A DNA stretch of 24,428 nt from a virus, in IMG/VR virus record IMGVR_UViG_3300025128_000321, positions 1-24,428 of that record; one strand, 5' to 3'. Within the stretch, counting starts at the first letter, position 1. Each line of letters opens with the position of its first letter. A model generated the notes under the pieces. That model was not told where the DNA came from. It did no database searches and saw nothing but the letters and a program-made list of their open reading frames with translations. Below are positions 1,950 through 5,004 of the stretch, piece after piece. A program made the position numbers and the translations under genes.

Positions 1950-1979
1950 TTGACTAATTTCAGCTGCGGATGCTATGTT
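1950..1979 (+). promoter_or_regulatory. Candidate rightward promoter
   Basis: TTGACT (1950-1955) matches five of six -35 bases. After 18 bases comes TATGTT (1974-1979), preceded by TGC as in an extended -10. Transcription from here would give a leader of roughly 370 bases before the terminase small subunit gene. Confidence 0.4.
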
Positions 1980-2073
1980 GGTCGAAGCATTCGAACTTGC
2001 ATAATCTGGAAGCGCCAGAACGGGCTGGGGACCTTACACGTTGGCGAATGTGTAGGGTGTGCGCACAAGTTCA

Positions 2074-2109
2074 CCACTGACACACCCGGAAATAGCACAG
2101 TGTCAGTGG
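2074..2109. other. Perfect 10-bp inverted repeat (hairpin) in the leader region
   Basis: CCACTGACAC (2074-2083) and GTGTCAGTGG (2100-2109) are exact reverse complements separated by 16 bases. No T-run follows on either side, so it does not look like a terminator. It may be an RNA hairpin of the long leader or a protein-binding site. A separate 10-base palindrome, TGTGCGCACA, lies just upstream at 2058-2067. Confidence 0.6.
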
Positions 2110-2157
2110 CAATTGCGTTAAATCCGCCATAGGTACAGTGGGCGAAATACGCCTAAA

Positions 2158-2227
2158 GAATACTAGTTAACTAGATATCTAGATAACTAGAACACAGTAA
2201 ACAAAGCTTACAAGTTAACTAGTATTC
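2158..2227. repeat. CTAG palindrome array upstream of terminase small subunit
   Basis: CTAG occurs at 2163, 2171, 2179 and 2187, exactly 8 bases apart, and again at 2219, 32 bases further on. The first four sit in a 28-base near-perfect palindrome (2163-2190, one A/A mismatch, core CTAGATATCTAG). The outer arms 2158-2172 and 2213-2227 form a perfect 15-base inverted repeat. Short direct repeats ACAGTGGGCG flank the structure at 2135-2144 and 2267-2276. The position, about 135-200 bases before the small terminase gene, suits a packaging-initiation site or a regulator-binding site. It is AT-rich and non-coding. Confidence 0.7.
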
Positions 2228-2280
2228 ATCCTTTTAAAGGCAAAATCTCAAGATCGGAAAATCGCCACAGTGGGCGTATA

Positions 2281-2360: not shown

Positions 2361-2843
2361 ATGAGTACACAAGATAACCCGGATTCACACGCACCGGCAG
2401 CTGTTTCGAGTGTGGGAATAGTTCCTAAAGAATCTGAGATATATAAAAACACTACTGCTAGAAAGAAAGCTTTTTTAGTTGCATATGCCAAGTGTGGAAC
2501 CGTAACACAAGCCTCGAAAGCTATCGGTATTAACCCGGCTACGCCTTATGACTGGCTCAAACACGATAACGATGGATTCAAAGCTAACTTTGAACATGCA
2601 AAGCAAAGCTTTGCAGATTCATTGGAAAGCATAGCTTTCGAGCGTGTGCAAACAAGAGATACCAACGATGTCCTACTGATAACGCTTTTGAATGCACATA
2701 AACCTGATAAGTACAGACCAAACACACAAGCTACCAATGAACAGGCATCGGAAGTGATTGCAAAGTTAACAAGGTTGACAAGGAAGTCAGTCGGGGGTCA
2801 GGAGGAGACAGTTGAGATAGCAGAGGTACGAGGTGGGGGGTAG
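2361..2843 (+). CDS. terS: Terminase small subunit-like protein
   Basis: This 160-residue protein has the usual small-terminase helix-turn-helix layout. KKAFLVAYAKCGTVTQASKA leads into GINPATPYDWL (about residues 35-66), followed by a helical segment (NFEHAKQSFADSLESIAFER) and then DVLLITLLNAHKPDKYRPN, a pattern common in small terminase and phBC6A51-type homeodomain proteins. The helix-turn-helix would bind the packaging site, and the protein would recruit the large subunit encoded at 5229-6614. A palindrome array lies just upstream and is a candidate target. The gene is visibly richer in A+T than its downstream neighbours up to about 2760, after which it turns G-rich. Four genes separate it from the large subunit, which is unusual. 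It could instead be a regulator with the same fold. Confidence 0.68.
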   Translation: MSTQDNPDSHAPAAVSSVGIVPKESEIYKNTTARKKAFLVAYAKCGTVTQASKAIGINPATPYDWLKHDNDGFKANFEHAKQSFADSLESIAFERVQTRDTNDVLLITLLNAHKPDKYRPNTQATNEQASEVIAKLTRLTRKSVGGQEETVEIAEVRGGG

Positions 2844-2851
2844 GGCTTAGG

Positions 2852-2893
2852 AGTTGGTGTGTGGTGGGATGGATACCCCCAACTAAGTTTTTT
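2852..2893 (+). terminator. Weak terminator-like hairpin after terS
   Basis: AGTTGG (2852-2857) pairs with CCAACT (2879-2884), with a possible inner GGG/CCC stem. After AAG, six T residues follow at 2888-2893. The large bulge and the gap before the T-run make it only a moderate terminator candidate. It ends 13 bases before the next start codon, so it may also affect translation of that gene. Confidence 0.4.
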
Positions 2894-2905
2894 AAGTAAA
2901 AAGGC

Positions 2906-3722: not shown

Positions 3723-4265
3723 ATGTTAAGGGAGTTGAGTCTGTTCTCCGGGTACGGGGGCATGACGTTGGGATTGAGACTGGCTGGTTGGCCGGTTCGG
3801 ACGGTGGCGTATGTGGAGAGTGACCCTTGGTGCCAGAGGGTATTGAGGGCGAGGATAGAGGACGGGAGTCTGGACGGTGGTGATATACACGGGGACATCA
3901 GGGAGTTCGGAGCGGAGCGGTACGTTGGAGAGGTCGATCTCGTCAGCGCCGGGTTCCCGTGTCAGCCGCACAGTTTTGCCGGAAGTAGAAGAATTGCCAA
4001 AGGGGAGTTCGACCCAAGGAACCTCTGGCCCGAGACACGAGAGATCATTCGGGTGGTGGGACCCGAGTGGGTCGTGCTTGAGAACGTACCAGGCATCCTT
4101 TCTGGAAATGACGGAAGGCAGGGGTACGGGATCAGTGTACTCGGAGAGCTTTCCGAGTTGGGGTTTGATGCTAGGTGGGGAATTCATAGCGCAGCCGACG
4201 CCGGGGCACCCCATCTCAGGAAACGGTGGTGGGTGTTGGCACATACCCACGCCTACGACCGCTGA
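3723..4265 (+). CDS. C5 cytosine DNA methyltransferase, catalytic half (motifs I-VIII)
   Basis: This 180-residue frame contains the catalytic half of a C5 cytosine methyltransferase. It has motif I LFSGYGGMTLGL (7-18, S-adenosylmethionine binding), E32, motif IV GFPCQPHS (77-84, catalytic Cys80), motif VI ENVPG (120-124) and motif VIII GAPHLRKRWW (161-170). It stops at 4263-4265, right after motif VIII. The target-recognition region and motifs IX-X are absent here but lie downstream in the +1 frame (to 5004). Either the gene is frameshifted by mutation or sequencing error, or a +1 ribosomal shift joins the halves, or this is the alpha subunit of a split enzyme like M.AquI. No restriction enzyme is nearby, so it would be a solitary protective methylase. 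The start has no strong ribosome-binding site. Confidence 0.85.
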   Translation: MLRELSLFSGYGGMTLGLRLAGWPVRTVAYVESDPWCQRVLRARIEDGSLDGGDIHGDIREFGAERYVGEVDLVSAGFPCQPHSFAGSRRIAKGEFDPRNLWPETREIIRVVGPEWVVLENVPGILSGNDGRQGYGISVLGELSELGFDARWGIHSAADAGAPHLRKRWWVLAHTHAYDR

Positions 4266-4281
4266 CGTGTATACGGGGAAT

Positions 4282-5004
4282 ATGAAGAGTTCCCAGCAGT
4301 CGGACGGGTCTATGCACTCGGTCAGCTTGCCTGATTATGTGGAGATGTTCCCTACGCCCAGCACCATGGACCATATCGAGAGGAAGGGCATGAGGCCCAG
4401 CAGGGCGGCTACGAACCGCACCACGGGGTATCTGAGCGAAGAGGTGGTCAGGTGGGCCACGCCCACGGGGGAAGACGCCAAGAACACCGGCAATGAATCA
4501 AGAGAGAAGAGACACGGCCCGATGCTGAATTTACAGGTCACCAAGTGGCCTACGCCTACAGGGGATGACGCTAACAACGTCACCCGTGCCAGTGGGGACT
4601 TCCAGAGTCTAAGCAGGGAAGCCCAGCTTTGGCCCACGCCTGCGACCAGCCAGGACTACAAGCCGGTCAGACCGTCAGCACCTTCCGAGGCTGAAGGAAT
4701 GCACGGTAAACGTCTGGTGGGTGCGGTCGGTGACGTGGAGCCTGAGAATATAGGCGGCTCACTGAACCCGGACTGGGTCGAGCAGCACCTGATGAGCCTA
4801 CCAGAGGGCTGGACGAGACTGGAGCCAGTACCTGACGGGGCGTATGACGAGTGGTTCGACGCGATGAGGGACGGCACCTGGTGGGATACGGAACGTGGAC
4901 TGCCACGGGTCACCACGGGCGCCGAGAACAGGGTGAATAGACTGAAGATGTTGGGTAACGGGATAGTGCCGGCCACGCTGGCATTGTTCTTGATCGACGA
5001 TTGA
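4282..5004 (+). CDS. C5 methyltransferase target-recognition half (motifs IX-X), shifted frame
   Basis: This frame carries the missing half of the methylase. It has repeated (W/F)-P/A-TPT-type units (IPTPTTAD, MFPTPST, WATPTGEDA, WPTPTGDDA, WPTPATSQD) typical of the target region of one phage and actinobacterial methylase subfamily, then SLNPDWVEQHLMSLPEGW (motif IX-like) and NRLKMLGNGIVP (motif X). The frame is open upstream, overlapping the catalytic half. I place the start at ATG 4282, preceded by ACGGGGA, if it is translated separately. A +1 shift near 4239-4245 (CAT ACC C) would instead give one 426-residue protein reading LAH-PTPTTAD, which matches normal family length. Split enzymes with the same break after motif VIII are known. 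The sequence is certain, but the translation mode is not. Confidence 0.65.
   Translation: MKSSQQSDGSMHSVSLPDYVEMFPTPSTMDHIERKGMRPSRAATNRTTGYLSEEVVRWATPTGEDAKNTGNESREKRHGPMLNLQVTKWPTPTGDDANNVTRASGDFQSLSREAQLWPTPATSQDYKPVRPSAPSEAEGMHGKRLVGAVGDVEPENIGGSLNPDWVEQHLMSLPEGWTRLEPVPDGAYDEWFDAMRDGTWWDTERGLPRVTTGAENRVNRLKMLGNGIVPATLALFLIDD

Follow-up and report, generated by a model that had tools for sequence, protein, structure and literature searches.

The cos site of phage lambda (cosQ-cosN-cosB) couples a conserved cut site to repeated terminase-binding R sites beside terS, the R sites being few and non-palindromic. In one published account, cos measures about 200 bp and is divided into subsites (PMC4669245). 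The pac site of SPP1 extends across the terS promoters and includes direct repeats in several sets; its boxA repeats have no counterpart in SF6 (PMC4737164), and a cleavage core lies between binding arms (PMC6316719). In this system, the small terminase is thought to select DNA shape via many weak contacts (PMC4737164; PMC6316719), and TerS has been described as the most enigmatic packaging factor (PMC9611059).

With these systems we compared a non-coding locus in the window, that is, the whole 24,428-nt stretch of viral DNA under analysis (IMG/VR record IMGVR_UViG_3300025128_000321). A motif search placed CTAG at positions 2163, 2171, 2179, 2187 and 2219, bearing out the five copies within 60 b, four of them 8 b apart, of a preliminary description; its 28-b near-palindrome holding four CTAG and its framing perfect 15-b inverted repeat were recovered as well (Table 1). 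The apparent gap between the fourth and the fifth CTAG also keeps the 8-b phase, implying the repeat unit to be the degenerate octamer CWAGWTAA and not CTAG alone. The array is hence longer and more regular than five CTAG tetramers, and it is real, beyond chance. Its 64-b block of eight in-phase octamers has the strongest 8-b periodicity in the window, with 32 of 56 lag-8 matches (mean 13.9, sd 3.3) as the window maximum. A constant-spacing run of four CTAG compares with a longest run of three, seen in three of 400 dinucleotide shuffles of the window, and five CTAG per 60 b were reached in one of the 400; among the categories listed for 2,000 shuffles of the local intergenic sequence, the run of four with the count of five never occurred. 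Intrinsic bending at the array, estimated with an approximate wedge model and approximate parameters, was not unusual (27 degrees at 2163, the 63rd percentile of the window), a difference from the bent DNA of the SPP1/SF6 model. The ACAGTGGGCG direct repeats said to flank the array are present on both sides (2135-2144 and 2267-2276, read from the sequence), each as part of a separate small inverted repeat.

Table 1 Features of the array locus, with positions in the window unless stated otherwise
Feature	Position	Strand	Remarks
Sigma-70-like promoter	1950..1979	+	TTGACT-18-TATGTT, TG before second hexamer; consensus match alone; the region has 3 such matches where 1.4 would be expected
RNA-A, structured leader/ncRNA	1975..2155 (L003: 4518-4697)	+	Compensatory changes relative to L003
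Left small hairpin	2139..2155	+	GGGCG-AAATA-CGCC (inverted repeat GGCG-AAATA-CGCC); left of array; carries left ACAGTGGGCG copy; conserved
Perfect 15-b inverted repeat	2158..2227 (arms 2158-2172/2213-2227)		Arms enclose the array
28-b near-palindrome	2163..2190		Four CTAG; 94% (repeat search)
Octamer array	2163..2226		CTAGTTAA CTAGATAT CTAGATAA CTAGAACA CAGTAAAC AAAGCTTA CAAGTTAA CTAGTATT; consensus CWAGWTAA, 8-b phase
Right inverted repeat	2263..2276		CGCC-ACAGTG-GGCG; carries second ACAGTGGGCG copy; not conserved in L003
terS, small terminase subunit gene	2361..2843	+	phrog_4044
Terminase-linked core	2836..2903	+	GGGGGTAGGGCTT-N25-TACCCC...AAGTTTTTTAAGTAAAAAGG; overlaps terS stop codon; candidate packaging recognition/cleavage site

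When viral contigs were scanned with TerS, a single close relative (L003) emerged; scans with TerS, a TerS profile, ORF155 or the RNA-A pattern, and a scan of genome contigs, returned no second close relative carrying the region. Across the 140 residues matched, the two TerS proteins show 88% identity, and they have the segment INPATPYDWLKH in common. At the nucleotide level, identity is 82% in RNA-A and 76% in terS, dropping to 46% in the array region, where the relative carries CAAGTTAA seven times, one unit being CAAGTTCT. This is the best lag-8 block of its locus, with 48 of 56 matches. The proposed check for an 8-bp phase in related phages thus came out positive for the spacing and negative for the letters: the phase and the unit core CWAGWTAA are kept, but L003 lacks CTAG and the perfect 15-b hairpin, and of the two ACAGTGGGCG copies it retains the left one alone. 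Given that L003 and most other relatives use other letters, the exact CTAG design can be ruled out as a conserved signal. The presence of CAAGTTAA units alongside so similar a TerS, with INPATPYDWLKH in common, further suggests that TerS is not obviously reading CTAG. An AlphaFold model of TerS (mean pLDDT 74) predicts an HTH region at the N terminus, together with a long helix. In a comparison of this model with PDB structures, all E-values were 0.001 or higher; by probability, the small terminase of Sf6 ranked among the best matches (0.96, E 0.28), a likeness of the predicted fold that is suggestive only. In INPHARED, no phage record had a significant match to TerS, to the array region or to either of two versions of the core described below, and TerL had distant matches only. 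Two DNA methyltransferase ORFs (PHROG matches) lie between terS and terL, at 3723-5004.

Repeats upstream of terS are not confined to this pair. A TerL scan returned 79 related loci, most with terS just upstream of terL, and many of these relatives carry upstream units of GTTACTAGTAAC types, TTTACTAG (8 b), CACTAGT (7 b), GTACTA and GTAACA (6 b) or others. Across 51 terS groups, repeat-dense sequence windows were concentrated 0-1.5 kb upstream of terS. Absence of the array with terS kept, which the preliminary description had named as evidence against its proposal, was seen in two relatives (L016 and L019, in which no upstream array was found). Many others have arrays spelled in other letters. 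Between the arrays and the terS operon, relatives carry another conserved structured-RNA-like element, RNA-B (L026:456-572, L032:3493-3612, L059:4831-4968 and about 45 other loci). A column scan of RNA-B gave two stems with several pair types; RNAalifold returned no structure, because the alignment is gappy, and Rfam had no match at the gathering score in the ten relatives' loci tested.

In relatives, a core of ~65 b, GGGGGTAKGKCTT-N25 (25 or 26 b)-TACCCG followed by an AT-rich tail, is very conserved and always near terS/terL on the same strand, before the terS operon in most and after terS in the window, in L003 and in the distant L090. Scanning with the DNA pattern alone yielded 28 loci (one of which, L088, has 473 b downstream only and is on the same contig as L071). 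Core loci with a 25- or 26-b spacer and enough flanking sequence had terS/terL of this phage family within 2.1 kb, and five matches with other spacers had neither. The core is a possible marker for the family. CTAG occurs near the core at about 2.5x background and GTTAC/GTAAC at 7x, and the same palindromic 6-mer is found at least three times in 150 b in 12 of 32 core zones as compared to 1 of 236 control segments, the p value not being literal as the loci are related. The palindrome concerned varies from lineage to lineage (ACTAGT, AGTACT, TCATGA, CTTAAG, ACATGT, CATATG). The arrays of relatives lie on either side of the core. That of the window lies ~610 b upstream, with terS in between, and that of L003 likewise; both fall outside the zone in which relatives' arrays crowd, which weakens the link between array and core for the window itself.

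Contig ends scatter upstream of the core: in a sample biased to contigs with terL, 10 of 36 lie within 450 b, not at one base. One 39,869-b contig (G008, whose ends are the starts of L033 and L115) has a 13-b terminal direct repeat, CCCTTGACAATCC, which sits between its array and RNA-B, and two contigs from other samples (L034, L037) start at most 6 b from that place. Either assembly or a cos overhang that was filled in could account for this repeat. Contig ends make an uncertain guide to cos ends: one contig alone has a short terminal repeat, and the ends of the others are scattered, perhaps because assemblies broke within repeats. TTGTCAA near the G008 ends looked like a cos candidate but was not taken as one, since several relatives have it as the -35 box of a promoter directed leftward.

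What do these observations say about function? The array had been proposed as a packaging-initiation site, an idea that our results partly support. In favour of this proposal are its position 134 b 5' of terS, the 8-b array in L003 and the palindromes upstream of terS and around the terminase-linked core; against it, CTAG is not conserved, some relatives (L016, L019) show no array, and the core, absent from the preliminary description, is the better candidate, more likely than the array to be a recognition/cleavage site. We therefore tentatively regard the CTAG array as the fast-evolving repeat arm of a packaging-initiation region, a reading to which we give somewhat less than an even chance. 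We infer a scheme in which the core, as a pac- or cos-like packaging site, would be recognised and cut, and the iterated palindromes around it or 5' of terS, the present array included, would position TerS, touching the array, or a partner protein. Such positioning would proceed through repeated weak contacts, not through one fixed sequence.

It is the combination of a conserved core, variable repeats and terS adjacency, resembling SPP1 pac (pacL-pacC-pacR, headful packaging), that favours a packaging-initiation region. In both cases, sets of repeats occur in the region of the terS promoter or leader, the array here being next to terS and downstream of a promoter-like site, and the location of the repeats is kept while their letters are not (CTAG octamers here, CAAGTTAA octamers in L003, other palindromes elsewhere). 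A cleavage core with binding arms beside it would be a further likeness. The two differ in that gene 1 of SPP1 begins within pac, whereas most relatives have the core ahead of the terS operon and the window has it at the terS 3' end, and in that the units here are iterated short palindromes with a 6-11-b pitch. Lambda cos offers a possible parallel, with a conserved core, here a candidate cut site, and repeats beside terS; its few, non-palindromic R sites contrast with the palindromic iterated units of this locus. A search of the open-access literature did not find such an array described. The earlier remark that no described pac site has this design was nonetheless too strong, in view of the direct-repeat sets across the SPP1 terS promoters and of the boxA repeats not retained in SF6 (PMC4737164).

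The leader between promoter and terS invites a regulatory interpretation. L003 has an aligned promoter-like site, TTGACT-18-TAAGAT, and RNA-A differs between the two phages by five both-side pair changes (including 75-98, 119-148, 121-146 and 122-145) and three one-side changes, with no pair broken. No known RNA family was recognised: Rfam gave no match at or above the gathering score at 1780-2400 of the window or in the loci of ten relatives. With a promoter-like site and RNA-A upstream, the array is probably transcribed, between RNA-A and terS. The region is also divergent, leftward early genes (GP88-like in the window) facing away from rightward packaging genes. An array of operators, tandem symmetric sites for a phage regulator of the terS promoter or of an early/late switch whose repeats change with the regulator, would fit this setting: the palindromic units suit dimers, a strong leftward promoter-like match (11/12) is present in L003, and the leftward early genes of the relative G018 include exonuclease and AAA genes. 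Yet the array begins ~180 b downstream of the promoter-like site, past RNA-A and without overlap, no regulator gene was identified beside it, and relatives' arrays flank the terminase-linked core, not a promoter, leaving this interpretation unlikely. A further conserved hairpin, CCCGTAAC-loop-GGATACGGG, is found at 1815-1850 (L003, about 4112-4138). It belongs to the leader of the GP88-like gene at 1197-1778, which runs leftward, and a T run comes after it on the plus strand.

Repeat turnover could also be neutral, with short palindromes in a non-coding spacer expanding and contracting without function at a slippage hot spot. Copy number indeed differs among near relatives, near-identical strains included (L035/L041/L082; L005/L006; L066/L071/L073/L085), and letters turn over while flanks stay. 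Recurrence of arrays at the same place in many lineages, their rarity elsewhere in the same contigs, and the 8-b phase and unit core that the window shares with L003 make neutral slippage distinctly unlikely, however.

A replication origin, consisting of iterons and an AT-rich core bound by a phage initiator, appears improbable. The locus shares with iteron origins its tandem short repeats beside AT-rich DNA, there is one such region per genome, and in G018 the leftward exonuclease and AAA (RecA-fold; AAA_25) genes lie to its left. The core, however, follows terS/terL through rearrangements, a search of window ORFs recognised no initiator gene, and classical iterons are longer than the 8-b palindromic units seen here.

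Least probable of these rivals is an RNA-level role, in which the 15-b hairpin would form the 3' end or an RNase III-type cleavage site of the upstream RNA or control terS translation: the hairpin lies downstream of the promoter-like site and the covarying RNA and folds strongly (single-strand DNA fold z = -5.5), but the L003 repeats fold less well (z = -3.4), survival of the 8-b phase where the perfect hairpin is lost favours a role at the DNA level, and no intrinsic terminator (GC stem, then T run) was found in 1780-2400.

Returning to packaging initiation, the way in which small terminases locate the start site has yet to be settled, and a family with a stable core, changing repeats and a kept terS provides natural variants for separating sequence reading from repeat spacing. 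Very speculatively, and with only a slim chance of being right, the lineage-specific palindromes that accompany the core might act as a fast-changing identity tag, letting each lineage package its own genome in preference to those of satellites or of relatives infecting the same cell, perhaps with help from the adjacent structured RNAs. Should the core prove to be the packaging site, genome ends could be marked by it in many contigs of uncultured phages.
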